Assembly: GCA_963971425.1 (NCBI GenBank)
Contig: OZ020518.1
Location: 11,166,190 to 11,230,189 of the forward strand
Source of the DNA: Bryoerythrophyllum caledonicum
Taxonomy: Eukaryota; Streptophyta; Bryopsida; Pottiales; Pottiaceae
Reading direction: 5' to 3'
Length of the DNA stretch: 64,000 bases
The position numbers and the translations under genes are program-made. Under the pieces are notes generated by a model, which was not told the DNA's origin, ran no database searches, and worked only from the letters and a program-made list of their open reading frames with translations. Numbering within the stretch: the first letter of the stretch is position 1; every line of letters starts with the position of its first letter. This document shows positions 24,816 through 44,815 of this stretch, piece after piece.

Positions 24816-25440
24816 GTTGTATGACGATTTCTTAAATTCATCTTCACCATGGCATTTTTCCAATCTTAATTAGCAGATAATGATTTAATTCTTCATCTAT
24901 TGTATCATCTTTTTCTGATTTTTTTATTTTATTTTTCCTTTTTTCTTATGTCATGTTTTATGTGTTGTTTAATGTTTTAATGTTTCATGTTTTGGTTTAG
25001 GGTCTTTATATGGATTGTTTTGAACATTTTAAACATCCATCTTCTCCTTTATCTTTATGATTCTGTGTACGAGTAACCTCGTTGAATGTAATTATTTCCA
25101 ACAATAATGTCTACATTAACTTGTGAGTATCCAAGCCTGGCCAGTCCACTTCTAATGAAGGCGCCTCCTCGTTGTACAAATGATAAATAATTTCAGACAT
25201 GTCTAATGAATATAATAAATACAGTCATGTGTTTTGCGGCTGGGATCATCAGTGGTTATCATTTTGCGCCTGGGTTCTACTTGTTGTTCACTCTCCTACA
25301 ATGTCAACATGGTGATCCATCTGCAGCATTTTCTTTCAGCACTGTATCGTTGTTCAGTGGTAGTGGAAAGTGAGAAAGTTTACTGCGAAGTATTAGTTAC
25401 CAAGTGTTCAAAGGTGAAGGGGGACTTCTGAGGGGGTGGC
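24816..25440. other. AT-rich interval, nothing recognised
   Basis: T-rich sequence follows the gap (24890-25010), then mixed sequence up to the RING-like gene. No terminal inverted repeat matching the right side of the 25-45 kb region was found by eye. Confidence 0.4.
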
Positions 25441-25458
25441 TCTGTGATAGATAAGAAG

Positions 25459-26952
25459 ATGACGTCGAAGAGGAAGAAGGCGAGCAAGCAGCACAGAACT
25501 AGACACCGAAGTTCTGTGCAGGGTGCTTCTGATGTCCAAGAAGTTAGTGACGATAACACTGGAATTCGAAGTGATGGAGAGGGCAGAAGTGATCGAGTAT
25601 TCAGCACAGAGGAGTTTGGCGACCCATTTGAACTCGGTGACATCGAAGAGGGGGTGCGTCAGCGGATGCTTATTGCAGCGCCAATGCTCATGGGGCGAGA
25701 TGCAGAGTATGGTAGCAAGTTCTTTACTGATGTTGTTGGGCTTTGTGATCAAGGGCCGCTTTTAAGGGATGTTTCCAAGTGCTACAGTTTCATCACAGAT
25801 GAAGAAGTAACTGTTGTGTGGAAGGAGGGAGTCTCAAAGGGGCGTTACGAGTTCTCAAGGTGCGAAGATGAGGAGCAGCTGAAGATGTTTGATCAGCAGT
25901 ACTTCAAGGTGTACGGTAACAGGCCCCATAACAACTACTTCTGTCTTCGTTTTCTAAAGGCTTGCTTTGCAACTTTTATTTATGGAAAGCTAGTGAATTG
26001 GTGTGCTGAGGCATTGGACCGACACGAAGCTCGCCTAAAGAACGCATGGCGAAATCCAACAAAACTAGGCCCAGTTGCAACTAGATGCCAAGTAGAGGGC
26101 CTGTGCACGATAATCAAGGAATTATGTGGTATAAGTAGAGGTGAAGCGAGACCTGATCCTCTAGTTCATGAGCTCCAAGCAGCACCAGAACTGGAGCGCC
26201 AAAGGGCTGACGTAGTGAAGGCTGTGGAGGAGCACCTTCACGAGATACGACAGAGGTACAACGCTAGTCTTTAAAGGATGCGGGTTGAATCCTCTGAAAT
26301 TGCAGAAGAAGATTTAAATGAGAAAAACGTTTCAAAACTTAAGGAGGCCCGGCAAATTCTACGTAGAGAGGGTCCCACAGTACAATACAAGGCAACTGTT
26401 GCAGAGTCTGAGGCATTGTACAAGGAACTGGCTGACATGCGGGAGACTGATGCTCAAATCTGAGAGAATGTTGTTCAGTTGGAATTTGAGTTGGGTAATG
26501 AAGCTAACGTAATGGAGGATGCCAATGCAGAGTTACTAACATGTAAGGCAACAGTTTCGACTGCAAGGGGGTAGATGCTTACTCTAAAAACACCAAGAGT
26601 GTTTGAATATCCCAAGGTCCAATCTGTTCCACCTTTGGGTTATCCACGTAAAGATGCTTGTGCTTACTGTGGCTTGGGATTCGTTTGGAAAGCAGCTGTA
26701 CTCTCCTCATGTGGTTGTTTTTTGCACCCTCCCTGTGTTGCAGAAATGATTTCATGCCAGAGTTATCGATGCAAGATTTGCAAGGATGTCCTCCTAGCCT
26801 CGTATCCAATCCACCTTGCAGAACCATGGGTTGCCCAGTTTGGTGGCGAGTTAAACCCCCAACAAGAAATTGAGTGTACAAGCTTCTCGGTAGTTTTGAA
26901 GGCAGCTAGTGATAGTATCAACGCACCCAAAATTACTGGAAGCAAGAGTTGA
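25459..26952 (+). pseudogene. RING-like zinc finger protein gene with three in-frame stops
   Basis: A single plus-strand frame runs from the first ATG (25459) to 26952 and is interrupted only by TAA (26272-26274), TGA (26461-26463) and TAG (26572-26574); no frameshift was seen. The N-terminus is lysine-rich (TSKRKKASKQHRTRHR), then acidic. A central domain (about residues 60-230) is unrecognised. A charged helical stretch follows. The C-terminal part has a cysteine/histidine cluster C-x2-C...C-G-C-F-L-H-x2-C...C-x2-C (about 26659-26785) that resembles a RING or SP-RING fold, so a ubiquitin/SUMO-ligase-like or DNA-binding role is possible. I think it is transposon cargo because of the methyltransferase-like and transposase genes downstream. 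Confidence 0.55.
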
Positions 26953-27436
26953 CATGACCACCACAGATTACTATATAGCACTAAGGAGGCCAAGTGCTAA
27001 CGGCACTTGTAACAACAGACATATTTTATTTTTTCCTTATATCTGAGCTTTATTCTTGAAGAAATGTCATGGGCGTACTTCAGACATAATTTGTTGTTTC
27101 ACTGACTAGGGTCTCGTTAGGAATTGGAGGGAACGAAGAAAATCAAGTTAAGTGAGTTGCAAGGTTTTGAGAAGGTCCAGAGGTCAGAAAATACTTCAAA
27201 GACAATGGGTTAGGTGTTGAGGCTGATAAATTGAAATTTGAGATATACTTTATGTTTGTCTTAGCCTTGTCGTTGGTAAATTCAACAACAACATTCAAAC
27301 TTCTGTGAAGAGAGTAATGCACCATATGATATATTAGGAAGACAGGATCCATAGAAGAACAATGGCCCAAGCATTCAACCAAATTATATAGTAGAGGACT
27401 ATACAAAGAAGTCCAAATCCATATAACTGTAAAGTC
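26953..27436. other. Spacer between convergent genes
   Basis: This separates the 3' ends of the RING-like (plus) and methyltransferase-like (minus) genes. It is AT-rich and contains no recognised element. Confidence 0.5.
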
Positions 27437-28790
27437 TCATGGTACAAACTCGTCTTCACTCTCTGAGGCACTCACATCTAAGAAAACTCGGGCCCTAGGA
27501 TCGAATCTCTCACGGGGAGAGGAGGACGCGCTAGAGCTTTGGGAAGATTCTTCAACCATTCGGGTTGCCAAACTTTCTGCATAACATGGAAGCAGTAGGT
27601 CTGAGGTAGTGGGTGACATGTATCCTCCCCAAGAGCTCATCGGACTCAGACTGCAAAACAAGGTAATGATTAGTTCTAAATCGGATTATGGAATGACAGA
27701 CAGGAACCATGAGACTTTGACAAAAAATGACTTACTTACAGAGGTCAATTCGATCCACGTCGGGCAAGGGTTCTTCATCGTCCAACATGACAGCATCAGA
27801 AGCAGTCGGGGCCGGGGCAATCTAGAGAGGCTTGAGTTCCTCCTCGTAGATTTCTGTGTCAACCTCGAGGGCAAGAATCTGCCTGCCAGCATTCATGGCC
27901 GCTCGAATAGAAGCTCCTAAAAACAACAAACCAATGATGAAATCACATGAGAACCATATGAAAGAGCGGTATCAGATCATGGAATAAAGTATATGCAATA
28001 CTTGTTCCAGCATTGAGGTCGATGACTATGCCCTCGTTGGGGCAAAGGCCAATAATTAGCAAGTAGAGGAAAGCCACTGCTTTCTCCTTCGGACCCCTCC
28101 ACAGCGTCCCATCCTTCTTCACCTTGAGAGCTGAATCCTCGGTGACAACATTGTGATGCAATCATCTTTTACAAGATTTACTTTTCCAAAACGTGGATCG
28201 TGTCTAATGACCAAATCCTTCGGCTACCTCAGTGATCTAAGGATCGAACCAGCAGTATTGCTTTGAACATTAGAGTCTGAAATGCAAGGAAAACAAATGA
28301 TCAGTTAATATTGGCTTTGCAATAAAAGCAGAGGTGAAGGGACTAATGGAAAGATTTGGTTGGCTTACGAATTTGGAGTGCGTGGTGGGATGAGTTAAAT
28401 GCATGGAATTCACGATTGTCCAGTCATCCTTGACCTTCAGACTGTTGTTGTTAAGGTAACTCTGGATCTCCCTCTTGACCTGCGGGTTGACTGGATGAAA
28501 CAAGAGGAGTGCCCCGTTGTCATGCAAGTACCCCCCGCAAAAGCCAATAACAGTTTTCAAGAAATATAGAGATTCTCCTTGAGCATCTCTGGAGCTTCAA
28601 ATTTTTCGTAGTGGACTTTGATCTCCTCAAGGAAAGTCGGCATGAGATCTGGATCTGCAATTGGAAGCAACTTCTTTAGCTCCGACTATTGACTGTCCTC
28701 CACCCTTTTCACCGCCGTAGAGACCCAGTCATCAACCGATTTTTTGGTCCATTGACGCTCCTCATAATATTTATCGTAAAATTTTTGCGA
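27437..28790 (-). pseudogene. Beta-class DNA methyltransferase-like gene, multi-exon, degenerate
   Basis: Reading minus: exon 1 (about 28790-28369) contains GGYLHDNGALLLFHP; exon 2 (28276-28002) contains RGPKEKAVAFL and GIVIDLNAGT; exon 3 (27916-27740) continues with ASIRAAMNAGRQILALEVD; exon 4 (27650-27437) is an acidic Ser-rich tail ending SESEDEFVP. Boundaries are GT/AG-like (GTAAGC, TTTCAG, GTATTG, TTTTTAG, GTAAGT, TTTTGCAG). The VIDLNAGT...AAMNAGRQILALE block fits SAM-binding motif I (usual DPFAGTG). A catalytic-side segment lying before it is the order of beta-class N6-adenine/N4-cytosine enzymes. The DPPY-type motif is not visible; it may lie upstream, lost at the palindrome array. TAG stops (28688-28686, 27824-27822), a frameshift near 28565 and another in exon 2 inactivate it. 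Confidence 0.55.
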
Positions 28791-29520
28791 GACTATGGGG
28801 GTGACACTATGCCATAGTGACACTATTTGCGCGCCACTATCGGGGTGTGCCGCCGGCGGCACACCTCCCATCACTCAAACCTTGGTTCCAAAAAAGTGCC
28901 AAGGTATGAGCGATGAGAGGTGTGCCGCTGGCGGCACACCCCCGCAGCGTCGTGCTTATGAATGATTTTCAGAGATAAGGTGTGAGCGATGGGAGCTATG
29001 CCGCTGGCGGCACACCACCATAGCGTCGCGCAATCACTCATAAGCACGACGTTGCAGGGGTGTGCCGCCAGCGGCACACCTCCCATCGTTCATACCTTGG
29101 CACCTTTTAGGAACCAAGGTGTGAGTGATGGGAGGTGTGCCGCTGGCGGCACACCACCATAGTGTCGCACAATCATTCATAAGCACGACGTTGCGGGGGT
29201 GTACCGCCAGCGGCACAACTTCCATCGCTCATACCTTGGCACCTTTTAGGAACCAAGGTTTGAGTGATGGAAGGTGTGCCGCTCGCGGGAGACCCCCATA
29301 GTGTCGTGCAATCATTCATAAGCACGACGTTGCGGGGGTGTGCCGCCAGCGGCACACCTCCCATCGTTCATACCTTGGCACCTTTTAGGAACCAAGGTTT
29401 GAGTGATGGAAGGTGTGCCGCTGGCGGGAGACCCCCATAGAGTCGCGCAATCATTCATAAGCATGACGTTACGGGGGTGTGCCGCTAGTGGCACACCCGC
29501 ATAGCGTCGTGCAATCACTC
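28791..29520. repeat. 139-bp tandem array of nested palindromes
   Basis: About four to five units with a 139-bp period (GGTGTGCCGCTGGCGGCA-type cores near 29132, 29271 and 29410). Each unit has two 20-bp palindromes, GTGTGCCGC-CA-GCGGCACAC, and between them a second inverted repeat (CATCG-TCATACCTTGG...CCAAGGT-TGAGTGATG) around a CACCTTTTAGGAA loop, so a whole unit can fold into one long hairpin. A further small palindrome (CACTATG-C-CATAGTG) lies near 28805. The array adjoins the 5' end of the methyltransferase-like gene. Confidence 0.92.
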
Positions 29521-29750
29521 ATACTTTTTCAATCTTCACTTTTTTGTAATTTTTTTTCACTTTGTTTTTATCTTTTTGTCACTTTTTTCTCTCTTTTTCC
29601 TCTTTTTTGTTTGTTTTTCATAGTTTCTGTCCGCGGTCATGTACATGAAATTGTCTTGCTCCTTTCCCGGTCATAAGGCTGTCTTGGAATCCTTATTTTA
29701 GATTATTTTTGGTAACATAAGTTTCAGTTCCTGTAGTCTGATTACTATCG

Positions 29751-29831
29751 TATAGTTAAAAAATTACTTTTGTATAGTAAAAAAGTAACTTTCATATAGT
29801 GAAAAAGTAACTTTTATATAGTAAAAAGTGA
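29751..29831. repeat. 22-bp AT-rich tandem repeat
   Basis: TATAGT-AAAAA-GTAACTTTT-type units of 22 bp occur about 3.7 times. Confidence 0.9.
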
Positions 29832-29865
29832 CAATTTTCAAAAACTTTTTACCAACTTTTTCCTG

Positions 29866-29930
29866 ACCGCTCACCGTTCACCGCTCATGCCTCACCGCTC
29901 ACCGCTCACACCTCACCGCACCCAAGATAG
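29866..29930. repeat. CACCGCT-type heptamer repeat
   Basis: Degenerate (C)TCACCGC units of about 7 bp (for example CTCACCGCTCACCGCTCA). A related CCGCTCT heptamer array lies at 44816-44886, at the other side of the large transposase region. Confidence 0.8.
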
Positions 29931-30313
29931 CTTCGTCCGGTATACAATATCAAAGTAGTTGCTGTCACCCTAATGTAGCTTCTAGCTCTACACCCTATAT
30001 TTTATAGAATGGACACTTGCCAGGATGTCTTGTCATAAATAATAATGATTTACTTCCATTTCAAAACAATCACCTATTTCTAACTAGCAAAGACGGCTGA
30101 TACTAATCTCAGAGAATTTTATGGACAAGTAGAATTTGCAGCATGATGTAGTAATGAGAAATGGCGGCTACCTGATAAAATTAAACTACATGCCAGGTAG
30201 CCAACAAGATTACGTTCGTTCATTGAAGTATCGTCGAGAATGCATTCAGAACTGCCTGATCTATTGGATCGCATAAATTGATGATCGTCGATGCAACATT
30301 CCTCTCATTCTAG

Positions 30314-32208
30314 GTTATCAAATTCCTTACGCAATTTCCATTCGCGCCCCACTATCAGTGATGGCGCAGCTCCTTGCAGAGAGAGTGTTAGGTATGGCCG
30401 TACTCCGAGCTCAAGGCGTTGGCATCCCACTTACAGTACGTGTAGATGATGATGGGTTGGCAACAGTTACGGTGCTTCGCCACAGCCTTAGATTCCACTT
30501 CAGAGAGGATACTATTAGTATTGAGGAGGAGATATACGACGATGAGACCTCAGAGGTTATACATACAGATGATCAGGTTTCAAAGAGAGACGATGACAAT
30601 ACTGTGTTTTGGAATCTCTATCCCGGTAGGTATAGAGTATACGGTCTCACAGATTCTCAGATGCAGGCATCCACGGAGATTCTAACTCCCCGTCGTTCCT
30701 CTACATGTACTGTTCAAACTTCACTTCCTCGTGACGTGAAGGTTAAAGTAGAGCCTGGCCTGGAAACTCCTGTTGCAATGCCAGTCATCTCTCTCTCCTA
30801 AGATGAGGAAACTAGTCCTATGAAATCAACCCCTCATGTTCCAAAACAAACTGTAGATTCCAGGCCGCCGGTTGCGCTTCCAGTTAAATGTCCCACTCCC
30901 TTTCAATCTTCAAAGGTGGAGACTGTTAGTCTAGTCCCATTGCTTCGCAAACTTGCCGAGAGACCAGGAAAGAAAAACATTCTGAAAAAAATAGACTACT
31001 GATTCATTAGATACGAGAGAGTTGAGTACTTGCCTGCAGTGTTCGATGGTGCAGTTATTTTTGAGTTGCCCCCAGCTGGTGAAGGAGCCTCAAGGTCGCA
31101 AGCAAAGTCTATGCAAGGAATGGACAAGCGATACGATGGCCACATGTGGACCAAGACCATCACCACCAACATCACAAACGACTTTGGCCTCTCTTTTCGC
31201 TATTGCAGCTGCGTTGGATGGCTGCGTTGCAACAACAAGGAGTGCCCATTTCTGGAACACCAACCTCGCATGTATCAAGTTAACGAGACTGAGTTTGAAG
31301 GTTGTACCCTCCAAGCTTTTACAGTGGACCAGCCACCCCCATCCGAATCTACACTTGTATGCAAGGTATGCAAAGAACCCCCAGCATGCATCGCTACATG
31401 TGGAGCTAAAATTTATTATGTGGCTGGCAAAGTCAACCAGACCAGAGCGTGTATCCATCTAGGATCTCACGATCACCCAGTCAAGGTTGGCGACTACAGA
31501 GACACAAAGGCCGAGATCAGTAGCTTGATAGAAGAACAGGTTGAGAAGACTCCCCAAGCAACGAAGAGTTCAGTGGTGTTGGAAGCGAGCAAGGTTCTAA
31601 TCGGCAACTACCTACTGCAGCCTGAGGACGCACCTCCAAAGAAGCTGAGCATGGAGGAGCTTGTTCCTGTACTTGATCGTTGCAAGGACATGGCATCCCC
31701 AAACATCCGCAACAAGGTAATGACTTTCCGGCGGTTGAGAATGTACGATGTCATGGATGCTATCACTAAGCTACGTGGAATCAATTTATGGGCCTTCGTC
31801 CAGGAGAACAAATTTCCAGGTCAAGGGGCTGATCGCGACAAGGTATTTGTATTCAAAATGTCGGAAGTCGGGTCAGGTAGTGGGGTCGACTTGGTGAGAA
31901 GAATGCAGCCCGGCGGAGATCTCGAGAATGCCTGGCTGATGTTCGACCATGTCAAACGGGTAAGACAGTGGACCACGATGGCATGCCATGTGTACGACTC
32001 AACCTACTGCCGTGTCATGACCATTGTTAGCTGTGATATGCAATCTGAGGACTGTGAGGCCCAAATCGTTTTCTGGAAAAACCTTAATCTTGTCATGGAG
32101 AATAATGGCGTTGTAGCGCCAAACTTCAAGGGATCCACGGCCGACAGCGCTCAGGCCAACTGGAATGCAGTTCGGATCATCTACGGCAATGGGAAGAAGG
32201 AAGACCGT
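30314..32208 (+). pseudogene. Mutator-like transposase gene, 5' part (split by gypsy)
   Basis: The frame can be read from a TAG acceptor at 30311-30313 (first ATG 30361) to the gypsy insertion at 32208, with only two in-frame stops: TAA 30799-30801 and TGA 31000-31002. The N-terminal part is acidic and has a V-K-V-E SUMO-consensus-like site before the first stop. A zinc cluster follows (C-x-C-x5-C-x4-C near 31204-31248, with H-x-H in SHDHPV near 31470), resembling the WRKY-GCM1 type that occurs in some Mutator-like transposases. Then come SCDMQSED and TADSAQANWNA, which I take as the first two catalytic Asp positions (tentative). The same frame continues after the retrotransposon at 41832. 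Confidence 0.65.
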
Positions 32209-33955
32209 TGTCCTGATGGAAATTCTTCCATCATGTACATACAAGTATTAGTCTTTATATGTGTGGATTTTAATAAGTAAGGAGTTGGGATAAAAAGGTT
32301 TGGTCGTGGTGAGAACCACGGTTTGAGGATTTGGGCAAGTGTTAGCATGTAGGTGCTGCACCGCTCTTGTCACTGCTCAGGGGGGTAGGTAGCGGGTTGA
32401 CTGGTATTTTTCCTGCCTCACTAGCGAGCCAAGCCGTGGGCCGCTCAACCACTCGACGGGCTCGATCGGGTTCGAACCCGGACTGGCGGCGGCCACTGAC
32501 CACGACATTTCCAGCCAACCAAGTCCACGACTTGGCGATCAGGTTGTGCGAATCAACACCTTTATACGTCCGTTCCATCAGCTAACTTTCGATAAGTTTT
32601 TTTTTTTAATTTTTTTTTTTAGTTATTTTTTTTATTTTACTTATCTTGTTGGTTGGAAGGTCTAAATTTTTAGTCTTCCAATAAATAAAAGACTAGGGGA
32701 TTTATGTGGTTGAAAGTGGAAAGGATAAGAAAGTAGCAAAGTACCTTGTGGGGTACTTTGGATAGGGTGACATGGGCTGGAGTACCCACGTCCACTTGAG
32801 GTGAAAAAGTTGGAAAAGATTTTTTTTAGTGTGTGTGTGTGTGTGTGCGGGTGAGAGAGGAAGGGTTTGGAGCAGAACTTTGACTGTGTGTAACTCGTTG
32901 AGCTTGAACGATATGGAATTGAAAACTTGTGATCTTGTTCCTTGTTTTGAGAGCTTTCTATACTCGTTTTAAATTTTGAATTCGGAGTTGTAGAGAAAAA
33001 GTTATTGAGGTTTTAATTCTGTGAAAACTCGAGGCCATCCATTGAGAGGCAGAGGTTTCGAGGAGCCACAACTTTTTCTGTAGTTCTCAATTTGATTTGA
33101 GATTTGGAAGGTGTATGCGTCTCTATCTTAGCTTTCTAGAAAGATATCACAATTGAAATTTGGAGTTGTGAGCAAGAAGTTATAGAGATCTGAATGAATA
33201 GGGGTAGGCAGAACTTTGATTGTCCATAACTTTCGGACAGTAGTTTAGATTGACTTGAAATTTGGAGGAGTGTTAGTTGTCTAAATTAGCTTTCCAGAGA
33301 GCTATTATACTTAGTATTTGAAGTTTTGAGTCATCTGTGTCACTTGTTTGAAGGTTACAGCCTTGGTGAAACTTTTCCATTGTGTTTTTGAACACTTCTT
33401 TTGAGTTTCTTAGTGTTTTTGAACACTTGAAGACTTTGGAGTTGAAGGATGGAGGAATTGAAGACTTGAGGCTTGAAGAGAAGAGAAGATGGAGACAAGT
33501 GTGTTGTAGCTTGTGGTCCGATTTCTTTTTTTGTGATTCCAAGCCAGCTTTGGAGGCTAGTTGTATTTCAATTCTGTTCTTGTAAACTCTGTTGCGGCGA
33601 AGTGGGGTTAATTGCCCACACGGTCGTGTTTATGTTGTTCCCACCGGTGAGGCACGTTTGCTGGTCACCGTGGGTTTGAATTTTAGGAGCCAATCTTTCG
33701 GACGGTTTCAGCTTGTGGTCTGGCCGTCCCGTTTTACCCGTCCGAGGCCGTGGTTTCTTATCACCCACCTTTACCCTTAACCCTTTAGAGCCACCACAGG
33801 ATAGGCCAACGGGGAGGAGTTTGAAGACAGAAGACTGAAGACTAGAGACCGAAGACCTGAAGATTTGAAGATACGATTGGATTCCCGAGCAAACAATCTC
33901 CAGACGCAGCCAGATTCCCTGCGAATTCTCAAGGCGCTCCCCTCTCTACACGACA
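32209..33955 (+). repeat. 5' LTR
   Basis: TGTC...GACA ends. Five substitutions relative to the 3' LTR lie at 32281 (A to G), 32926 (T to C), 33023 (A to G), 33109 (G to A) and 33904 (T to A); all are private to this LTR because copy 1 agrees with the 3' LTR. Transcription start and polyadenylation sites cannot be fixed by reading alone. A tRNA-like box lies at 32468-32479. Confidence 0.97.
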
Positions 33956-33957
33956 TT

Positions 33958-33975
33958 TGGTGCTTCCACTGAGAG
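33958..33975 (+). promoter_or_regulatory. Primer binding site (minus-strand priming)
   Basis: TGGTGCTTCCACTGAGAG starts 2 nt after the LTR end and begins with TGG, the complement of a tRNA 3' CCA. I could not assign the tRNA species. The same sequence follows the LTR in copy 1. Confidence 0.7.
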
Positions 33976-34005
33976 AGCTTTGAGGCGACTGGTGTGATTT
34001 TTGCT

Positions 34006-36375
34006 ATGGGAGACTCTGAAGGAGCTGCTGGTGGTGGTGGGAGACGCACCGGTGGAGTTCAATTTCCCATGGAGGACATTGTAGGGGCATTGGCCTTGTT
34101 TATGGAACAACATAGGGCGAACCAAGGTGGTCAAGGTGCCACGAAGGCTCTGAAGGCTGTTGTTTCCAAGATTGGAAGGTTCAACGGCAAGAATATCTCC
34201 AAGTTCTTGCGAACCTATGTTTGCGAGATGGAGGTGCATCAAGTTGAAGACAATAAGATGATGCGGACTTTTGACATGGCGGTTGTACCTGAGATTCGTG
34301 ACCGGGTGCAAGAGATTCGCGAGTTGGTCACCTCGTGGGCGGAGTTTGCTGAACGACTGCGGGATGAGTATTTCGATGAAGATTTGGAGAGAATGACAAA
34401 GAGATCTTTTCTTGAGTGGGTGGAGCAACGGCCAGGGAACTCTATGGGTCCCAACGAGCTGTTGAGAGACTTCGAGAAGAAATTTATCCAATTGCCTTTG
34501 GCAGAGAGGCGCCTTCTTGAGTCAAGGAAGGCAGAGCTTTTTCTCCAAGCAACTGATGTTGCATTGGAGGACAAACTTCTTCTACTTCTAGGAGACCGGA
34601 CCACAGAAGGTGGCTTTACCAATGACTGGAGGAGGGTTGAAGAGACCGTGATTCTTTTGGCCAAACAACAACGCGTGAGGTCAAGAGGAGTCGAAGGGAG
34701 ATTTGATGCTGAGCCTATTCAAACACCAAAGTCTTTGAAGGTGTCTTTTGCTCCAACACCATCGATAAACCTGGGGTCTACCTCGAAGACCACCAAGACC
34801 ATCGAAGGAAATGCCCTCGAAGAACTTATTAAGGGTTTTCGAGAGCTAAGGATGGAATTTACTGAGTTGAAGAAGGCTAGAGGAGCTTCTTCTTCCCAAC
34901 CATCCGAAGGTGCGAGAAAATATTCAAGGAGGTGTGTTTGGTGTGATGAGGAGACTGAGCACAATCTCAGAGGCTGTGAATCGTATGAAGAGGCACTCAA
35001 GAATGTTCATGTCTACTACAAAGATGGGAAGATTCACGATGCCACAACAAACTCTCCATTGGGGACCAATTTTGGAAGAGGAGGAATGAGGAAGCTCATG
35101 GAAGAGAAGATGGCAAGATCCAGCTACGTACAAGTGCATGAAGCTGATACTTACCACATTCAAGTCGAGCACCATTCAGATAAAGTTTTATCTGTTCAAA
35201 CTCAAATATTAATGAAGAGAGGAGCTCAAGCCATCAGAAATGCAACTGGATGGGAAGATCCAGTTGATGCAAATAGCATCAGGGCATTTATGTATCAAGA
35301 AAAGGACATTGATGAGCTCCGCGAGGCCTCTGTTGAAGAAAAACGTGTAAGACTTGATGCTGATGATGGTGTTGAGCCAGAAGCAAAGAGAAGATCTCCG
35401 GTGCAGAATGAGCCTGCAAAGGAGATGAGAAAGAGGGTTCCTACACGTTCAAAGCCGTCGGACCCTAGTACTGTGCGCCCTAGTGATGCACCGTTACCAA
35501 AGGAATGGTGGGAGAAGAATAAAGAGAATGAGAAGGATGGACCAAGCAAACAATCCAGTGATAGCAAAAGAGGAGAAGAGAAAGGAGACACTACGAAAGT
35601 CAAGGGAAAAATGCCTACTTACAAGCTCCAGTCAGACATTGAGACCTCTATCGACCTGAAAGGGGTATTGGAGGAAAGAATCTTGGATGCCAAGATCGAA
35701 TTTACATTGAGAGAAGCGCTTGGCATAGCCAAGAAAGATTTCCATGAGTTAATCATTGACATTATCAAGAGGAAGAGGCAGATGACAGCTGAGGCTGTGA
35801 TGATCAGAGCTTTAGACACTCACATGACCCAAGATGAAGAGACAGAGATTGGCGAGGTATTTGCTATGATGGGTGAGCCAATAAGTCAAGAAGAAGAAGT
35901 TTCAAAGGAGGAAGCACGAACCTTTCAATTCTCTTATGATCTTCCCAACATGAAAGAAAATGAAGAGAAGATTGAGTTTGATCTACCATTTTGGGCTAGG
36001 GCCACTACTGAAACGAAGATAAAGCTCGGAGGGATCGATGACCATGTTTTAGCCCTTGTTGATCATGGTTCAGAGATTAACATAATATCTCGAAATGTCT
36101 ATGAGAAGGGCAAATGGCCAATCGACACGGACCATGGCTGGGTCATGAGAGCAGCTAATAGTGGACGGACTCGGTTGCATGGTGCTTGCCCTGCAGTACT
36201 CACAAAGATTGGAGATGTAGAGGTTGAACAAAATTTCTTTGATCAAAATGTTAGCGCCTATCCGATAATTTTGGGCCAACCATTTATCACCGCTTCACGA
36301 ATGGAGACCAAAGTGTTGGATGACGGGTCTCATTATGCCCGTATCCGAAGTGTTGATGGAAAGAGGTCAGTGTAG
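34006..36375 (+). CDS. gag-pro: Gag-Pro polyprotein
   Basis: The ORF encodes 789 residues from the ATG at 34006. The N-terminal third is the capsid-like region, rich in charged helices. A short zinc knuckle-like motif C-x2-C-x5-H-x4-C (CVWCDEETEHNLRGC, about residues 310-325) binds nucleic acid in related proteins; its spacing differs by one residue from the usual C-x2-C-x4-H-x4-C. A basic/acidic linker follows. The aspartic protease is at the C-terminus, with the active-site block ALVDHGSEINII (about residue 682), where D-H-G-S replaces the usual D-[ST]-G, and the ILGQPF flap-side motif further on. The pol ORF is in another frame, so Gag-Pro and Pol need frameshifting, re-initiation or separate translation. 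Confidence 0.93.
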   Translation: MGDSEGAAGGGGRRTGGVQFPMEDIVGALALFMEQHRANQGGQGATKALKAVVSKIGRFNGKNISKFLRTYVCEMEVHQVEDNKMMRTFDMAVVPEIRDRVQEIRELVTSWAEFAERLRDEYFDEDLERMTKRSFLEWVEQRPGNSMGPNELLRDFEKKFIQLPLAERRLLESRKAELFLQATDVALEDKLLLLLGDRTTEGGFTNDWRRVEETVILLAKQQRVRSRGVEGRFDAEPIQTPKSLKVSFAPTPSINLGSTSKTTKTIEGNALEELIKGFRELRMEFTELKKARGASSSQPSEGARKYSRRCVWCDEETEHNLRGCESYEEALKNVHVYYKDGKIHDATTNSPLGTNFGRGGMRKLMEEKMARSSYVQVHEADTYHIQVEHHSDKVLSVQTQILMKRGAQAIRNATGWEDPVDANSIRAFMYQEKDIDELREASVEEKRVRLDADDGVEPEAKRRSPVQNEPAKEMRKRVPTRSKPSDPSTVRPSDAPLPKEWWEKNKENEKDGPSKQSSDSKRGEEKGDTTKVKGKMPTYKLQSDIETSIDLKGVLEERILDAKIEFTLREALGIAKKDFHELIIDIIKRKRQMTAEAVMIRALDTHMTQDEETEIGEVFAMMGEPISQEEEVSKEEARTFQFSYDLPNMKENEEKIEFDLPFWARATTETKIKLGGIDDHVLALVDHGSEINIISRNVYEKGKWPIDTDHGWVMRAANSGRTRLHGACPAVLTKIGDVEVEQNFFDQNVSAYPIILGQPFITASRMETKVLDDGSHYARIRSVDGKRSV

Positions 36376-36479
36376 TTCTTAACGGTGAGGCCTGACAATG
36401 AGAGGCATCGACTTCAACTCAGAGAGATTCCTCTACCAACTTCTACGAGCTTCTCGGATTTCTAGAGGGCACACGTGGG

Positions 36480-39400
36480 ATGTGGGGATCCACGGGTGCT
36501 AAGGGAACTAAGACTGGTAGATTCCCCAATGTACATACTAGTGTTAAGTGTGGATTTTTAAGTGTGACAAGGTGTGGCTTTGAAAGATTTACGGGTGTCA
36601 AAGACTTAGACCCCGTATGTAGAAAGCTCGTGAAAAAAATGGAGAAAAATCTTAAAAATATGAAGGTTGTAGAGGAAGATGAAAGCATTTCTGGTATTTA
36701 CGAAGAAAATGGAATGCCAGATGATATCTTGCAGACTTTGCAAGATCTAGAGGCAGATAAGGATGAAGAGAAGATTACTCATTGCATTGTCAATGTCCAT
36801 ACAAGTTCAATGTATCATGAGATTTCAATGGCAATGACAAGGCTGTGTGACTTCAAAATTGATGAACACATGCCGGAGGCTGCAGTTTATACAAAATACA
36901 AAACTATGGCCAAGAAAGTGAAGCCAGTGGCTACTCAGCTACCATCTGACACTGATGATCATATCAGACAAGCTGAGAAAGAGCCGAGTTTGAGAGAAGC
37001 AAGAAGGATTGGACACAAGTTCACCAAAGATACTTTGGCAAACTTGAAGATTGGTGGAGATGAATTTTTAACTGAGCCGGAGAAGAAGAAATTTCAAGAT
37101 ATGCTTTCGAAGCATGGAAAGGCCTTTGCTTCTTCGCCAGATGAGATTGGATGTGTACACCCAAGTGTTGTGGCACCAATGGTTATTTTCACGGTACCGC
37201 ATGTACCATGGGATTTGAAGCCTATACCAGTGCCTAGAGCTCTACTTCCAAAGCTTGTAGAGTTGCTCAAAGAAAAGACACGCATGGGCATACTTGAACC
37301 TTCGATGGCTCCATATTCAAATCGATGGTTCACAGTGCCAAAGAAATCGGGAGCATTGAGGTTCATTCAAGATATGCAGCCAGCAAACGGAGTGACAATC
37401 AGAAACAAAGGCTCAGGGCCTATTGTTGATGAAGTAGCTGAAGCATTTGCGGGGCATGCAATTTATTCCATTGGAGATCTATACTCTGGTTATGACCAGT
37501 TTCAACTAGCGGCTGAGAGCAGAGATTTAACAACCATGAAGACTCCGCTTGGATTAGTACGCATGTGTACATTACCTCAAGGTGCTACCAACTCGGTGGC
37601 ACATATGCAGAGCGCCATGAATCAAATCCTAAGAGACTTTGTGCCTCAGAAAACCATACCTTTTGTGGATGACATTCCCATGAAGGGGTGTGAGGAGAAA
37701 GATAAAGACCTAACCATCCAAGATGATGGTTGCAGAGCCTTTGTGAGTAATCATATTGAGGATGTGGCCAAAATCTTGAGCAAATTGGAGGAGGTCAATT
37801 TGACTCTCTCCATTGAGAAGTCCAAGTTTGGGGTTGATGAGATTTTGGTGGTTGGACACTTGTGTGGTTCTTATGGAAGAAAACCTAACCCTGAGAAGGT
37901 GGATGCTATTGGAAGAATGAAGGCCTGTAGCAATGTCACTGAAGTAAGGAGGTTTTTAGGAGCCTGTGTCTTCTACCAAATTTGGATCCCTCATTTTGCT
38001 CATATATCAGAACCTCTTTACAAGCTATTGCGCAAGAGGAACAAATTCGTTTGGCAATATGAGCAAGATCAAGCTATGATAGAGCTGAAGAGAATCTTGG
38101 AGTCACCATCGGTTCTTAAACAAGTGAGTTATACTTGTGGAAGACCGGTGATTGTAACTGTCGATACAAGTCCAATTGCAATTGGATGGGCTGTTGGACA
38201 AGATGATGAAGAAGGGAAGCGATTTGCTATCCGATTTGGAGCAAGGATCTTGACAGAGAGACAGAGGGCTTATCCACAAGTTAAAAGAGAACTTTGGGGT
38301 GCCCTTACAACTCTAAAAGCGGACAGAAACTACTTGATTGGTGCGGAGGTAGTTTTAGAAACTGACTGCTTGCCTTTGCTGGGGATGATAGCAAATTGTT
38401 CTTCACCGGACATTGCAATGTTGCGTTGGATAGCCTACATCAAGTCTTTGAATCCTGTTTTAGTTCACATTGAAGGCAAAAAGAATTCAGTTGCCGATAT
38501 GTTGTCTAGAGCAAGGTATTTCAAAGAAGATGAGATGATGGCTCACGAACATGGTGAAGAATTGTTACACGGAGGCTATGTGATGAACATAGATGGTGAA
38601 AGCACGTCCACTAGAGTATTGCCTTTCAAGGATGAGCTGTACGAAGGAAAGCTGAGAGATATTGGGCTCTACTTGAGCACAATGGAACGGCAAAGAAGTT
38701 GGATGGACAAGACATTCAAAGACATCAGACATCAGTCTTATGGATATCTGCTGAAAGATGGATTTCTATGGAAGAGGGCAAAAAGAGCTGGTGATGTGCC
38801 TTTAAGAGTGGTGGGAGACTCTGGAACCAAGACCCAAGTCCTACAAGAGCTTCATGATACACTCTGGGCCGGTCACAGAGGAGTGTGGGCCACTTATACA
38901 AAAATCAAGGAGAGATATTGGTGGAAGGGGCTGTACAAAGATGTTGAGGAGTTTGTAGCTTCTTGTGTAGTATGCCAATTACAATCCAAGGTGCGACACA
39001 GAGACGAATTGCATCCAACTTATCCCATTGCAATCCATTTTCAATGGATGATCGATTTGGTTGCTATGCCAAGTGCAATGTGGGGAATGAAGTACCTTGT
39101 TTTGGCCCGAGAAGAACTCTCAAACTTTGTTGAGGGAAGAGTATTGAGGACCAAGGCCACGGAGAATGTATGCCGATTTATACTTGAAGATATTTTTAGT
39201 CGGTATGGGAGTATTGGCCGAATGAGAGCTGACAGAGGAGAGTTGAATGCTACGGAAGCCAAAGAATTTTTCAAGCGATATGGTGTGCAGTTGAAACTGA
39301 CAACTGCTTACAATCCTGAGGCAAACGGCAAGATCGAGAGGGGACATCCTTCAATCATTCATGCTCTAGTCAAAGCTTGCAAAGGGAAGCCTAGTTCATG

Positions 39401-40037
39401 GCCAAAATTGCTACCGTTTGCACTATGGGCTGATAGAACAACACATAGTACGGTTACCGGTTACATGCCTGTAGAACTTATGTATGGGCAGAAACCTATC
39501 ATGCCGGTGGAGAACGATATTCCCACATGGGTGTTTCTTTCATGGGAAGATGGCATCAGTAGGGAAAGACTGTTGGAACTTCGTATTCAGCAGTTGGCAA
39601 GATTGCCTGAGGACCTTGAGATAGCCTTGGAGAAGATGAAAACTGCTAGATTGGGCAACAAAGAACGCTTCGACAAAACACATCGATTGAGGAGAAAGAA
39701 GATCAGAGAGGGTGATTGGGTCCTTGTATTTGATAGTACATTGGAGCATCAACACAGCACGATACGGAAATTTGCAAAGAGATGGATTGGACCCTATGTA
39801 GTGATTAAAGTGCACCTCAATGGCACTTATTCACTTCGAGAGTTAGATGGAGTTCCTCTTCGTGTACCAGTGGCTGGAAAACGCATCAAAGTCTTTCGAA
39901 GGAGTGACAGGTTTCATCTTGAAGATTTAGAGGACATTCTCGATCCACAACAATTTGATGACACTGATCAACCTGAAGATGAAGATGAAGATTTAGAAGA
40001 TGCAGTTCGGGACAACCAAGATAGTGAGGATGACTAA
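36480..40037 (+). CDS. pol: Pol polyprotein (reverse transcriptase, RNase H, integrase)
   Basis: The ORF encodes 1185 residues from the ATG at 36480; the frame is open some way upstream, so the true start may come from a frameshift out of gag-pro. The reverse transcriptase has IGDLYSGYDQ (Asp near 333), LPQGATNS and PFVDDI (Asp pair near 396). RNase H has VTVDTS (near 558), KREL and ETDCLPL. The integrase has an HHCC zinc domain (H-x3-4-H near 791-799, C-x2-C near 829), catalytic Asp in QWMIDL (~856) and ADRGELN (~917), and Glu in GKIERG (~951). A GPY/F-type module (RWIGPYVV, ~1103) follows. The C-terminus is acidic (EDEDED) with no chromodomain. All catalytic positions are present. Confidence 0.95.
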   Translation: MWGSTGAKGTKTGRFPNVHTSVKCGFLSVTRCGFERFTGVKDLDPVCRKLVKKMEKNLKNMKVVEEDESISGIYEENGMPDDILQTLQDLEADKDEEKITHCIVNVHTSSMYHEISMAMTRLCDFKIDEHMPEAAVYTKYKTMAKKVKPVATQLPSDTDDHIRQAEKEPSLREARRIGHKFTKDTLANLKIGGDEFLTEPEKKKFQDMLSKHGKAFASSPDEIGCVHPSVVAPMVIFTVPHVPWDLKPIPVPRALLPKLVELLKEKTRMGILEPSMAPYSNRWFTVPKKSGALRFIQDMQPANGVTIRNKGSGPIVDEVAEAFAGHAIYSIGDLYSGYDQFQLAAESRDLTTMKTPLGLVRMCTLPQGATNSVAHMQSAMNQILRDFVPQKTIPFVDDIPMKGCEEKDKDLTIQDDGCRAFVSNHIEDVAKILSKLEEVNLTLSIEKSKFGVDEILVVGHLCGSYGRKPNPEKVDAIGRMKACSNVTEVRRFLGACVFYQIWIPHFAHISEPLYKLLRKRNKFVWQYEQDQAMIELKRILESPSVLKQVSYTCGRPVIVTVDTSPIAIGWAVGQDDEEGKRFAIRFGARILTERQRAYPQVKRELWGALTTLKADRNYLIGAEVVLETDCLPLLGMIANCSSPDIAMLRWIAYIKSLNPVLVHIEGKKNSVADMLSRARYFKEDEMMAHEHGEELLHGGYVMNIDGESTSTRVLPFKDELYEGKLRDIGLYLSTMERQRSWMDKTFKDIRHQSYGYLLKDGFLWKRAKRAGDVPLRVVGDSGTKTQVLQELHDTLWAGHRGVWATYTKIKERYWWKGLYKDVEEFVASCVVCQLQSKVRHRDELHPTYPIAIHFQWMIDLVAMPSAMWGMKYLVLAREELSNFVEGRVLRTKATENVCRFILEDIFSRYGSIGRMRADRGELNATEAKEFFKRYGVQLKLTTAYNPEANGKIERGHPSIIHALVKACKGKPSSWPKLLPFALWADRTTHSTVTGYMPVELMYGQKPIMPVENDIPTWVFLSWEDGISRERLLELRIQQLARLPEDLEIALEKMKTARLGNKERFDKTHRLRRKKIREGDWVLVFDSTLEHQHSTIRKFAKRWIGPYVVIKVHLNGTYSLRELDGVPLRVPVAGKRIKVFRRSDRFHLEDLEDILDPQQFDDTDQPEDEDEDLEDAVRDNQDSEDD

Positions 40038-40068
40038 GTTTGGCACATACCAGAGGATGTGCAGGTTT

Positions 40069-40080
40069 AGAGAGGGTGAA
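40069..40080 (+). promoter_or_regulatory. Polypurine tract before the 3' LTR
   Basis: AGAGAGGGTGAA lies directly upstream of the 3' LTR start (40081), the expected place for plus-strand priming. It contains one T. Confidence 0.7.
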
Positions 40081-41827
40081 TGTCCTGATGGAAATTCTTC
40101 CATCATGTACATACAAGTATTAGTCTTTATATGTGTGGATTTTAATAAGTAAAGAGTTGGGATAAAAAGGTTTGGTCGTGGTGAGAACCACGGTTTGAGG
40201 ATTTGGGCAAGTGTTAGCATGTAGGTGCTGCACCGCTCTTGTCACTGCTCAGGGGGGTAGGTAGCGGGTTGACTGGTATTTTTCCTGCCTCACTAGCGAG
40301 CCAAGCCGTGGGCCGCTCAACCACTCGACGGGCTCGATCGGGTTCGAACCCGGACTGGCGGCGGCCACTGACCACGACATTTCCAGCCAACCAAGTCCAC
40401 GACTTGGCGATCAGGTTGTGCGAATCAACACCTTTATACGTCCGTTCCATCAGCTAACTTTCGATAAGTTTTTTTTTTTAATTTTTTTTTTTAGTTATTT
40501 TTTTTATTTTACTTATCTTGTTGGTTGGAAGGTCTAAATTTTTAGTCTTCCAATAAATAAAAGACTAGGGGATTTATGTGGTTGAAAGTGGAAAGGATAA
40601 GAAAGTAGCAAAGTACCTTGTGGGGTACTTTGGATAGGGTGACATGGGCTGGAGTACCCACGTCCACTTGAGGTGAAAAAGTTGGAAAAGATTTTTTTTA
40701 GTGTGTGTGTGTGTGTGTGCGGGTGAGAGAGGAAGGGTTTGGAGCAGAACTTTGACTGTGTGTAACTCGTTGAGCTTGAACGATATGGAATTGAAAATTT
40801 GTGATCTTGTTCCTTGTTTTGAGAGCTTTCTATACTCGTTTTAAATTTTGAATTCGGAGTTGTAGAGAAAAAGTTATTGAGGTTTTAATTCTGTAAAAAC
40901 TCGAGGCCATCCATTGAGAGGCAGAGGTTTCGAGGAGCCACAACTTTTTCTGTAGTTCTCAATTTGATTTGAGATTTGGAGGGTGTATGCGTCTCTATCT
41001 TAGCTTTCTAGAAAGATATCACAATTGAAATTTGGAGTTGTGAGCAAGAAGTTATAGAGATCTGAATGAATAGGGGTAGGCAGAACTTTGATTGTCCATA
41101 ACTTTCGGACAGTAGTTTAGATTGACTTGAAATTTGGAGGAGTGTTAGTTGTCTAAATTAGCTTTCCAGAGAGCTATTATACTTAGTATTTGAAGTTTTG
41201 AGTCATCTGTGTCACTTGTTTGAAGGTTACAGCCTTGGTGAAACTTTTCCATTGTGTTTTTGAACACTTCTTTTGAGTTTCTTAGTGTTTTTGAACACTT
41301 GAAGACTTTGGAGTTGAAGGATGGAGGAATTGAAGACTTGAGGCTTGAAGAGAAGAGAAGATGGAGACAAGTGTGTTGTAGCTTGTGGTCCGATTTCTTT
41401 TTTTGTGATTCCAAGCCAGCTTTGGAGGCTAGTTGTATTTCAATTCTGTTCTTGTAAACTCTGTTGCGGCGAAGTGGGGTTAATTGCCCACACGGTCGTG
41501 TTTATGTTGTTCCCACCGGTGAGGCACGTTTGCTGGTCACCGTGGGTTTGAATTTTAGGAGCCAATCTTTCGGACGGTTTCAGCTTGTGGTCTGGCCGTC
41601 CCGTTTTACCCGTCCGAGGCCGTGGTTTCTTATCACCCACCTTTACCCTTAACCCTTTAGAGCCACCACAGGATAGGCCAACGGGGAGGAGTTTGAAGAC
41701 AGAAGACTGAAGACTAGAGACCGAAGACCTGAAGATTTGAAGATACGATTGGATTCCCGAGCAAACAATCTCCAGTCGCAGCCAGATTCCCTGCGAATTC
41801 TCAAGGCGCTCCCCTCTCTACACGACA
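40081..41827 (+). repeat. 3' LTR
   Basis: 1747 bp, TGTC...GACA, followed by the target duplication CCGT. It agrees with the copy-1 LTR at all five sites where the 5' LTR differs, so it carries the family's ancestral bases there. Confidence 0.97.
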
Positions 41828-43693
41828 CCGTATGGAGGACCGGGAGAGGACCTGCCAGTTTCGCCGGACGCAATCGATGGTCAAGTATACGGAGAAGTAC
41901 ATCCCCAAAGAGCTTTGGGAACAACACAAAAAAATGTGCCACCAATATAGGACAGCGAAGACTATGGACGAAGCGGATAGTCTGTACCACGGGTTGCAAG
42001 CGTGGTGGGTTCTCGCTGGAGCTGTCACTGAGAAGGCCCTAAGAAAACTGGAGCTCTGGCTTGCATTCTGGCACTTCCGCTATCGCCAATGGGGAGGATT
42101 CATGACTGGGGTATGATATTTTCTAACTCATTTAACTTTTTTTTTTTCCTAGCAAATCCGACCCTAAATAAAGTTGTAACAGATCTAACCGGTTCACCCT
42201 AGTACTTTGCAGAAATTTACTGATGAAGAACTTGCAGAAATGCCTTCATGTAACCTTGCGGAAACGATTCACAACAAGTCGCTTCAAGCTTCTGGAAACA
42301 AGGGCGGCGACCTCTACGTGGCTACAGTGGACGACTTTGTTCGGGGATTTCTACAAGTTGTCAATTTCTACCAGTTTCTGAAAGGTGACGTAGGAGGAAC
42401 GGGTCCATCAAAGAAGGAACAAAAACTAAGATGGCAGAACGAAGGGCAAAGCTCACGGGGAATCCTATAGTGCTTGAAGACCCCATATTAGAGATGCCTG
42501 GAGCAAAAGAGTTCTGCACGCGTCAGCCTCGCATGGCTGGAGAAGAAGTTTTTGGGTCCATCAAGCGGAAGGCCGACCTACCCCTTGGAGCTGAGGAAGA
42601 GTCGAATCGTCCGGATAAGGTAAACTTCTCTTATCCAAGAGGTACAGGACGTGCTGTGAGGGCTCGCACTGTGCAGATGCCCATCATTTTGGAAGATGAT
42701 ACTGAGGTACAAGAAGATCTTCCTGTAGCATCGGAGGCTGTGACTACCCCGGTGTCCCCAACAAACGAGATGGGAATTTGCCATGTGAATGCAGTTGAAG
42801 AGACCAAGGTAAACGTCAAGGAGTGGCACATTTCAAGACTTCCCAAGACTTCTGCGAAGTGCTGTTGGGCCCAGAGAGCTGTCACCAAGAAGAAGTGTAC
42901 TGAGAGAATTGTCAGGGGCGCTAATTCTACCGCAGCACCTACCTACACTGGAGTTTGGACTAACATACGCAGGAACATATCAGAGAGGACGGAATTCTTC
43001 TTCTGCTCCGATGACATCAAGAGGTGCGTGAAGGGCTTCAGACGCAAGTGGATTGCTCGGTACTCAAAGGACCAGAAGATGCCTCCGATTCCAGACGTTT
43101 GGCCAGTGAAGCTAGGAACAAACCTGAAGCTCACAGAAATCCTTGCACTTGAAGCGGCTGGATTCCAACTCCCACAGAAGAAGCCGGTCTCCCCAAGACG
43201 CCTCTTCTCCTTTGCCCCGCCACCTGCAAATCTGAGTTCGCTGCCAGTCCCTGCAGAGGCTGACCGCTACCCTGGTAAGAGAGACGGCAAGATGGTCAAA
43301 CGCACTGCAACTCGCCCTAATCCGGCTCATCGACTCTCCATGGGCTCCTCCGACTCCCTCAAAGCTCGCCTCCGTTCTGTCACCATGATCCCTCATCCAG
43401 GCCATGGTTGTATCATCGGGCTAGATTCAGGCGTTGCTCCTACCATCACACAGTATCATATCACCATCAGCTCTTACCCTGGTTGCACTTGCCCTGCATT
43501 TAGGAAGACTATGACTAAGTTCCGAGGGAGGACTCAATTCTCCTACTGCAAGCATGTGTACTTCATCCTCTTGAAGGTCTGCAACCGTGATCCCGACGCC
43601 GACCTTTTCATCCACGCGCCTACCTTTAGCTTCAACGAGGTCAAGCTAGTCCTAGAAAGCGGAATCTTGACTCACCCTTTGGCGAAAAAGTAG
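41828..43693 (+). pseudogene. Mutator-like transposase gene, 3' part (SWIM domain)
   Basis: The upstream frame resumes after the retrotransposon (41832-42110; AWWVLAGA and FWHFRYRQWGGF are conspicuous aromatic blocks), crosses a 102-bp GT-AG intron (42111-42212, phase 0) and continues at 42213, where NLAETIHN may hold the catalytic Glu (tentative). The frame changes once between about 42430 and 42470. The rest is open to 43693. Near the C-terminus is a SWIM-type zinc finger, C-x-C-x18-C-x-H (CTCP...CKHVYF, about 43488-43560), as in Mutator-like transposases though with a longer spacer than in the gene at 57 kb. Acidic and basic linkers lie between. Besides the insertion, two stops and the frameshift inactivate the gene. 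Confidence 0.65.
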
Positions 43694-43953
43694 GAGGCAG
43701 ACTACTTTCCAGTCACGGTTTTTCACAGTGGACGGTGGTCACTGGGGTTGCTTAGTCATTGGTTTTTGAATTATTCCTTGTACTGAGTCAGCAGTACAAA
43801 TTTCGTATTGTCTTTTTCAATATAAAGGTTTTATCATTCACATTGATTGCATTGTGTAAGAATAGCTTCCACCTAGGACAAGTGCACTGTGAACCTCGTA
43901 TCCACTGACGGATGCACTTTATTACTGCCAATTTATACTAGTTAATAGTCATT
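43694..43953. other. Spacer between convergent ORFs
   Basis: This contains the probable 3' region of the transposase gene, an AT-rich stretch with AATATAAAGG-like sequence, and nothing else recognised. Confidence 0.4.
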
Positions 43954-44406
43954 TTATTGTTTGAACTTAATGCGTTTAGGTTTGCCCCTTGCATTTTCAG
44001 CATAACTACCAACCCCCGGCTGTACTACAGGACAAGCTACATTCACGTCCATTTTTGGTCCCACACTTGGCATTTGTCCTAGGTGGGAACGTTTCAACAA
44101 TGGCCCACCTCCACTCATCCCTCTAAGTGCTTTCCTAGAATAAGTTCCTGATGGGATCTTTCCAACCTTGGAGTATGCATGCAGTGGCAGCGGCACATCC
44201 GCCTCGTCGTCAAGCACTATGATCTCACTTGAATCTTCTACAGCTGAAGGGTCTCCTCTCAAATCTGATCTTACATCTACGTCCACCATCACAGTAAGCC
44301 CTTGGCTGCAGGCCTTCACCTCCTCCTCCTCCTCGACCTCCAGATATGGTTGAAATAGGCCAACAACGTCACCAAGTGATACAGCAATAACCCCGACGTC
44401 CTCCAT
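43954..44406 (-). CDS. Small acidic ORF with SUMO-interaction-like motif
   Basis: The frame encodes 150 residues from the ATG at 44406-44404 to a stop at 43954, unbroken. The N-terminal half has a run of Glu (LEVEEEEEV). In the middle SSEIIVLDDEADV has the hydrophobic core followed by acidic residues expected of a SUMO-interacting motif. The C-terminus is basic (KPKRIKFKQ) and could serve as a nuclear signal. I do not recognise a family. It is convergent with the SWIM transposase gene and may be part of the same element; a TAG lies upstream in frame, which supports this start. A splice acceptor-like TTTGAAACAG just upstream means a 5' exon is possible. Confidence 0.45.
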   Translation of the reverse strand: MEDVGVIAVSLGDVVGLFQPYLEVEEEEEVKACSQGLTVMVDVDVRSDLRGDPSAVEDSSEIIVLDDEADVPLPLHAYSKVGKIPSGTYSRKALRGMSGGGPLLKRSHLGQMPSVGPKMDVNVACPVVQPGVGSYAENARGKPKRIKFKQ

Positions 44407-44815
44407 AATCGTAGCCCGCTTCTACAGAGACCTGTTTCAAAAAAAAAAAATCGAAAAAAAAGAAGAGACTGTCCATAGCCCAAGCTTAAATATCCGTAAA
44501 GAAGGTGCTTGGCGCCCTTGAAAACCGGCCATTAAACTCGTAAATAGCTTTTATCCTGCAGAAGAGAATGAAAATCTATATGAACTATTTTATATTACGT
44601 CAACCTATTCTACTGGAACAGCAATATTGAAAAAAATAGCAAGGTAATAGGAAAAAAATATAGCTTATTTCCACTATAGTATCTAAAAGGTCCACGGTTA
44701 TAGGCCCACAATAAATTACTAAAAAAGTAAAATTCCAAGAATATTCTAAGAATATTTGAATCTTCTAATTTTAGTTTCTAATTTTAGTAAAAAAAGTCTA
44801 TATTTGAATTCAGGT

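Follow-up and report, generated by a model that had tools for sequence, protein, structure and literature searches.

Mutator-like elements (MULEs) have been tabulated with target-site duplications (TSDs) of 8–11 bp, SWIM domains and accessory PMD, SET and ovarian-tumour domains, and a RING finger is noted for two elements (PMC6446971); the word "methyltransferase" is missing from the main text of that paper. Methyltransferase genes have been described in other mobile elements: retrotransposons of dinoflagellates and Klebsormidium with C5 cytosine methyltransferases, DIRS elements with Dam-like genes (PMC5890265), and Mariner elements in algal viruses that also bear genes for methyltransferases and endonucleases (PMC3627910). 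In phages and prophages a ParB-CTPase fold is fused to an N6_N4 methyltransferase (PMC12704722), in a paper whose main text does not contain the words "transposon", "plant" or "algae". Here we analyse a stretch of 64,000 nucleotides from Bryoerythrophyllum caledonicum (Bryopsida; contig OZ020518.1, positions 11,166,190 to 11,230,189), hereafter the window, which holds a MULE-like element with a methyltransferase-like gene. Probably this is a large Mutator-like DNA transposon with several genes, present here as a broken copy; in its lineage a gene with ParB-like and methyltransferase-like parts would be old, and it would have been shortened in this family.

In its 10-bp TSD, inverted ends, putative C-terminal SWIM-like motif and accessory open reading frames (ORFs), which can be antisense, the element resembles MULEs such as MuDR, Jittery and VANDAL. 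What sets it apart from the described MULEs is a methyltransferase gene that has a part resembling ParB; its transposase matched no Pfam transposase model. As in the phage fusions, an N-terminal ParB-like motif and a PF01555-type domain at the C-terminus seem to belong to a single gene on a mobile element; unlike those, this gene is eukaryotic, split into exons and located inside a transposon of putative DDE type, and its N-terminal part is a candidate homologue of ParB only. The retroelements, too, are transposons with their own DNA methyltransferase gene, but here the carrier is a DNA transposon and the domain is of the N6/N4 type, C5 enzymes being of another kind. The algal-virus Mariner elements are likewise DNA transposons with a transposase and a methyltransferase, but they belong to another superfamily, reside in viral genomes and have Methyltransf_26 and C5 types; a ParB-like part goes unmentioned in the available sections of their description. 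MULEs with accessory genes, other methyltransferase transposons and phage ParB fusions are known; no report of a MULE with a methyltransferase or ParB-like gene was found among the listed titles and abstract openings of open-licence papers.

The search for relatives covered the window's own 437-Mb genome, to which all genome-wide counts refer; its 58 matches to the chlorophyll a/b-binding family mark the host as a green plant or alga. The transposase ORF as query gave 2636 first-look candidates and, from these, 101 scored matches: 23 at 93–100% amino-acid identity (the window's own family, window included) and 78 at 61–66% (cousins). Sequence of 10 kb was taken around 20 of these loci, 17 own-family copies and three cousins. 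All 17 own-family copies match the window to the right of the Gypsy insertion in its transposase gene, and to the left of it as far as at least 30029. The sequence left of a palindromic array is common to 15 of the 17, and copies L018 and L021 match, within their 10 kb, only from 29939 and 30029 onward. Mean pairwise DNA divergence per copy is 1.8–3.7% (2.8 kb, 18 copies).

Leftward extension of four copies, and further extension of three of them, yielded complete elements of 12,741, 12,105 and 11,696 bp. Their outer ends are common to all three, their flanks differ, and each is enclosed by a perfect 10-bp TSD (GGTCTAGGAC, CTGATATTGC and CTCCCCGCTC), as a preliminary description of the window, made from its sequence alone, had anticipated in proposing common ends and duplications of 8–11 bp as a check. 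That description's estimate that the genes extend over about 9.3 kb once the Gypsy insertion is left out was also right, the whole copies being longer. The element thus transposes as a block; its transposase would move the entire unit of about 12 kb at once and leave the 10-bp duplications behind. At the ends lie imperfect, GAGCGGA-rich inverted repeats (45 bp aligned in copy c09). For the window copy, which ends on the right at 44904, the expected duplication is GTAATTATAC, with no left counterpart in the window. In the fourth extended copy, c23, homology to the window stops left of 26107. The right-end motif CCGCTCRCATACAAG has 94 genome matches, against none for a reversed-pattern control, and is found at most 8 kb downstream of 18 of the 23 own-family and 15 of the 78 cousin transposases. 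The 61 places that are not beside a listed transposase may represent other families or non-autonomous copies. An Rfam search of the element gave no matches.

A constant set of genes accompanies the own-family transposases. Position lists were made from the best 100–150 matches per query, and within 20 kb the exon with methyltransferase motif I lies upstream on the opposite strand at 23 of 23 transposases, an ORF with a SUMO-interaction-like motif (SIM) lies downstream on the opposite strand at 23 of 23, and the RING-like exon lies upstream on the same strand at 21 of 23. All three are present in fixed order and strand at 21 of the 23. In three copies the RING exon is 15–19 kb from the transposase, presumably because of insertions. 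The proposal of one transposon carrying RING-like, methyltransferase-like, transposase and SIM genes is borne out by the shared order, strand and ends, and transposases that consistently lack these neighbours were not what we found. Two more cargo loci, C14:17199923 and C10:24527391, have no transposase among the scored matches.

The methyltransferase-like gene is partial and, judged from its sequence, of the beta class (N6/N4), its motif I lying near the end of the domain. A spliced fragment matched PF01555 (E 3.3e-5, 24.4 bits, below the 26.7-bit cut-off; profile positions 133–217 of 221) and the PHROGs "DNA methyltransferase" (E 9.8e-8). PADLOC type II methyltransferases were matched at E 4e-6 and NCBIfam models only far below their own cut-offs; a tblastn search matched phage DNA methylases at 25–30% identity (E 0.01–2 among the ten matches listed). 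The catalytic motif IV, [DNS]PP[YWFH], is absent in any frame from the methyltransferase region of the window and of the three complete copies. Two copies on C1 (at 50.70 and 43.75 Mb), which we term subfamily 2, have 2.2 kb extra where motif IV belongs. The subfamily-2 copy that was read has ...AADLVIAELPDG... ahead of the conserved strand and, by eye, ELPD in place of [DNS]PP[YFW] at the motif-IV position; profile searches with the extra sequence added did not extend the methyltransferase match. The related families have long open frames, with a methyltransferase exon of up to 569–575 amino acids and a ParB-like exon of 292–295 amino acids and more.

That second exon was found in the cousin L024, where a gene with FIYDGNHRHEAW is divergent from the transposase, and a related stretch, FMVWDGNHRLQAW, 35% identical to the cousin exon over the alignment, occurs in the subfamily-2 copy L018, where it sits in the place of the palindromic array of the window family. 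The cousin exon lies divergently 2.0–8.3 kb upstream of 34 of the 78 cousin transposases, where 0.64 pairs were expected regardless of orientation; all expectations assume uniform placement, and copies within a family do not count as independent events. At one further cousin transposase it sits on the same strand, 11.5 kb downstream; among the listed matches, no own-family transposase (of 23) has it within 20 kb. A search with the L018 exon placed a ParB-like exon upstream of 39 of the 50 relatives of methyltransferase exon A, at 0.8–4.8 kb and on their strand, against an expectation of 0.27. These loci are not near the listed cousin transposases, with which they form two pairs within 15 kb (0.80 expected). 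The cousin-type ParB-like exon precedes 21 of the 125 motif-I relatives, lying 3.4–3.9 kb upstream and on the same strand in 21 of 21 cases (0.69 expected). The motif-I exon lies within 12 kb of 15 of the 78 cousin transposases, 14 of these divergently upstream, and 13 of the 78 have both the ParB-like and the motif-I exons, in order.

Order and strand are thus conserved in the related families, and since they are kept across families with transposases only 61–66% identical, the methyltransferase gene appears to belong to the lineage, the window family having a shortened form. In the cousins, the conserved position is the stronger point and carries the weight, rather than the strength of any single motif-I match. 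The basic kit of the lineage would be the transposase plus a divergent gene that joins a ParB-like to a beta-class (N6/N4-type) methyltransferase-like domain, probably in a single transcript. In the cousins L024–L026 (10 kb each), comparison with the first 5.5 kb of copy c15 showed no RING or methyltransferase homology (filtered tblastx, E 0.01), and no SIM match is listed there; their methyltransferase exons may lie further left than the 10 kb compared. L024 also has a 129-bp tandem repeat (positions 1–263) toward its ParB-like gene and, past the transposase on the downstream side, a long array rich in GAA (8336–9440).

In the window family the gene appears to have been cut down, its N-terminal part replaced by the palindromic array and a transposon-end-like sequence, and motif IV lost. 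Two of the 139-bp array units fold with z-scores of -10.0 and -9.0 against shuffles; L018 has different repeats of its own in this place (-3.5 and -3.8 for two pieces). The internal sequence at 29866–29938 resembles the element's own right end, the alignment score of its last 26 bases being reached by 1 of 1000 shuffles. Insertion or gap repair with another MULE end would explain it; a target duplication around it was looked for and not found. A candidate remnant of the cousin ParB-like gene in the window family was rejected, the best tblastx match (E 0.17) lying outside that region. The Gypsy insertion is young, with long terminal repeats (LTRs) 99.7% identical and a 5-bp duplication, ACCGT.

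Table 1. Features of the MULE-like element in the window.
Feature	Coordinates	Strand	Remarks
MULE-like element, window copy	24816..44904	+	~97% identity and collinear with three end-to-end copies; extends left past assembly gap
Assembly gap, 200 N	24616..24815	.	Hides left end of window copy and ~1.4 kb of element (judged from copy c09)
RING-like gene, upstream exon	25459..26274	+	Stop-to-stop ORF of 280 amino acids from 25432
RING-like gene, cysteine/histidine-rich exon	26575..26949	+	125 amino acids; stop-free in window
Remnant of methyltransferase gene (linker, strands preceding motif I, region of motif I)	27741..28784	-	Motif IV and ParB-like N-terminus absent
Palindromic array, 139-bp units	28827..29523	.	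Units at 28977-29497
Internal sequence like element's own right end (CCGCTCACCGCTC...CTTCGTCC)	29866..29938	+	L018 homology resumes at 29939
Transposase first exon, part before Gypsy	30277..32208	+	Two in-frame stops (before 30802 and 31003)
Gypsy-like LTR retrotransposon in transposase gene	32209..41826	+	LTRs 32209-33954 and 40081-41826
Transposase first exon, remainder	41827..42112	+	3' boundary inferred
Transposase second exon	42213..43693	+	5' boundary inferred; C-terminal SWIM-like C-x-C...C-x-H
SIM ORF (SUMO-interaction-like motif IIVLDDE)	43954..44406	-	Pattern match
Right terminus	44856..44904	+	GAGCGGA-type repeats, ...CGCATACAAATCTCGTCC

Several results weigh against the reading of a broken MULE copy with an old, shortened ParB-like/methyltransferase gene. 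The transposase matches no Pfam transposase model, so membership among the MULEs rests on TSD length, ends and by-eye motifs. A divergent ParB-like exon is missing among the matches listed at 44 of the 78 cousin transposases, and so is the compared ParB-like type at 11 of the 50 exon-A and 104 of the 125 motif-I relatives; the motif-I matches in the cousins are singly weak (E 4.8e-5 to ~0.006). ParB families gave no match in Pfam, PHROGs, NCBIfam, PADLOC or a PDB single-sequence search; a PDB profile search with the exon gave one irrelevant match (E 1.7) and phages gave four records (best E 4). The sole resemblance, unconfirmed by databases, is the motif DGNHR (DGNHRxxAW), which we take to recall ParB/sulfiredoxin proteins, so the label "ParB-like" is a lead only. 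The ratio of nonsynonymous to synonymous polymorphism (pN/pS) among own-family copies is 0.57 and 0.64 for the transposase and 0.79 for the SIM ORF (18 copies each), 0.83 (five copies) and 0.63 (four) for the RING gene, 7.56 for the 5' ORF (three), and 0.59 for the methyltransferase piece (14 copies; ~30 codons of putative intron included). These values are not separable from neutral decay and show clear selection on no gene. Single-sequence folds had a mean predicted local distance difference test score (pLDDT) of 42 for the RING exon and 31 for the transposase core and were not used. Finally, the eight genome loci that exceed the PF01555 cut-off are not within 15 kb of listed cousin-type ParB-like exons. 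These loci (e.g. C9:14278932 and C3:25317), with the motif-I end only in 153-amino-acid frames, may represent another multi-copy methyltransferase-like gene.

The neighbouring genes might instead be separate nested transposons or host genes rather than cargo. The end-like sequence inside the element does suggest that two elements were once joined, and RING relatives lie away from the cousin transposases listed. Against this stand the 21 of 23 copies with every gene in the same order and strand, the complete copies with common outer ends but differing flanks and duplications, and a search for a duplication at the internal site that found none; the cargo order and the common ends contradict separate nested elements, which we reject as highly improbable. 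Capture of the Pack-MULE kind, in which the methyltransferase, RING and SIM genes are random host-gene fragments of no use to the transposon, has more in its favour, given that gene capture by MULEs is known (PMC6431247), that the methyltransferase gene is truncated in the window family and that pN/pS shows no clear selection. We nevertheless think it unlikely, because the divergent placement of the ParB-like/methyltransferase gene recurs in families that are a third apart in their transposases, which argues for inheritance from long ago. Capture may still account for the RING and SIM genes.

How far the gene still acts is a separate matter. The preliminary description held that the transposon could mark its own DNA, and the motif I region together with the long open methyltransferase and ParB-like frames of related families speaks for an active DNA methyltransferase encoded by the transposon. 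In the window's own family, however, motif IV and the N-terminus are missing and one sister copy has ELPD, so that the proposal is not supported for this family, methylation by its gene being unlikely on the evidence of its sequence; as a general account an active, self-marking enzyme is improbable, and such marking may be possible for the relatives with long open frames. The own family was amplified to at least 23 copies despite the shortened gene. Since enzyme parts were lost and amplification went on, the remnant of the old gene would be passive baggage or, less likely, a helper that binds S-adenosylmethionine (SAM) or DNA and does not methylate.

The pieces listed in the preliminary description are all present, with some labels weaker than given there. 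The WRKY-GCM1 motif, DDE acidic residues, C-x2-H and SWIM of the transposase are by-eye readings, and the Pfam SWIM match is weak in the window (E 0.034, 14.2 bits against a cut-off of 19.6) and in copy c15 (E 0.24). The SIM-like motifs VISLSSD and IILEDD in the transposase, and VVILSSD in a cousin transposase, are suggestive only, since shuffles hold such a motif in 2–8% of cases each. A similar degree of degeneration across the genes could not be established: stops occur in 7 of 18 copies of transposase exon 1, 6 of 18 of exon 2, 7 of 14 of the methyltransferase piece (which takes in some intron), 1 of 18 of the SIM ORF and 0 of 5 of the RING exon.

The RING-like gene shows, by eye, the pattern C-x2-C...C-x2-H-x2-C-x6-C...C-x2-C, with an atypical C-x6-C spacing; a Pfam search gave no match, so "RING" is a label at the level of the motif. 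A search with the cysteine/histidine-rich exon listed 109 matches: 22 near-full own-family copies, two halves of another copy and 85 relatives at 37–71% identity. The relatives (79 places) and the cousin transposases (78 places) form one pair within 20 kb, and the relatives show no excess over chance near transposases, ParB-like exons or methyltransferase relatives. Some occur as inverted pairs 8–15 kb apart, minus strand first (C3:9860509/9875110, C11:6843128/6856874, C10:23623847/23633386, C4:6527181/6535757 and C7:14333391/14341708), as if one element bore two RING genes facing away from each other. No SIM-like motif was found in the RING gene. The pattern in the SIM ORF was matched in 2.5% of its shuffles, and only four weak relatives are among the matches listed. 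From their motifs, both genes are plausibly further additions that would act on the host ubiquitin/SUMO machinery.

Outside the element, the window holds two ORFs at 55126–56106 and 56445–57338 (+), of which the latter matches SWIM weakly (E 0.034, below the cut-off); they may come from another MULE-like element. An ORF at 49361–49975 (+) matches DDE_3 (PF13358, E 2.4e-15) and is read as Tc1/mariner-like, and one at 58984–59922 (-) matches the Tet-like 2OG-Fe(II) (2-oxoglutarate- and iron-dependent) oxygenases (PF20515, E 3e-32). Methylated DNA can be a substrate of Tet-like oxygenases.

The likely original role of the old gene would be to bind, and perhaps to methylate, the transposon's own DNA and so to aid transposition or resist host silencing. 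A bolder version, which we offer tentatively and hold to be rather doubtful, is a MULE clade with a phage-like ParB-like plus N6/N4-methyltransferase core gene, whose intact forms would load on transposon DNA and write N6-methyladenine (6mA) or N4-methylcytosine (4mC), steering the transposase or evading silencing, and of which the window family lost the enzyme and kept amplifying. Plants are generally described as silencing transposons by methylating them. If true, a plant transposon lineage with its own bacterial-type methyltransferase gene, apparently joined to a domain resembling the one in the phage fusions, would invert this usual picture and supply a plant genome with N6/N4 methylation. 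The conserved position across families makes the idea directly testable, as the genes occur in large numbers and many of the listed frames are open.

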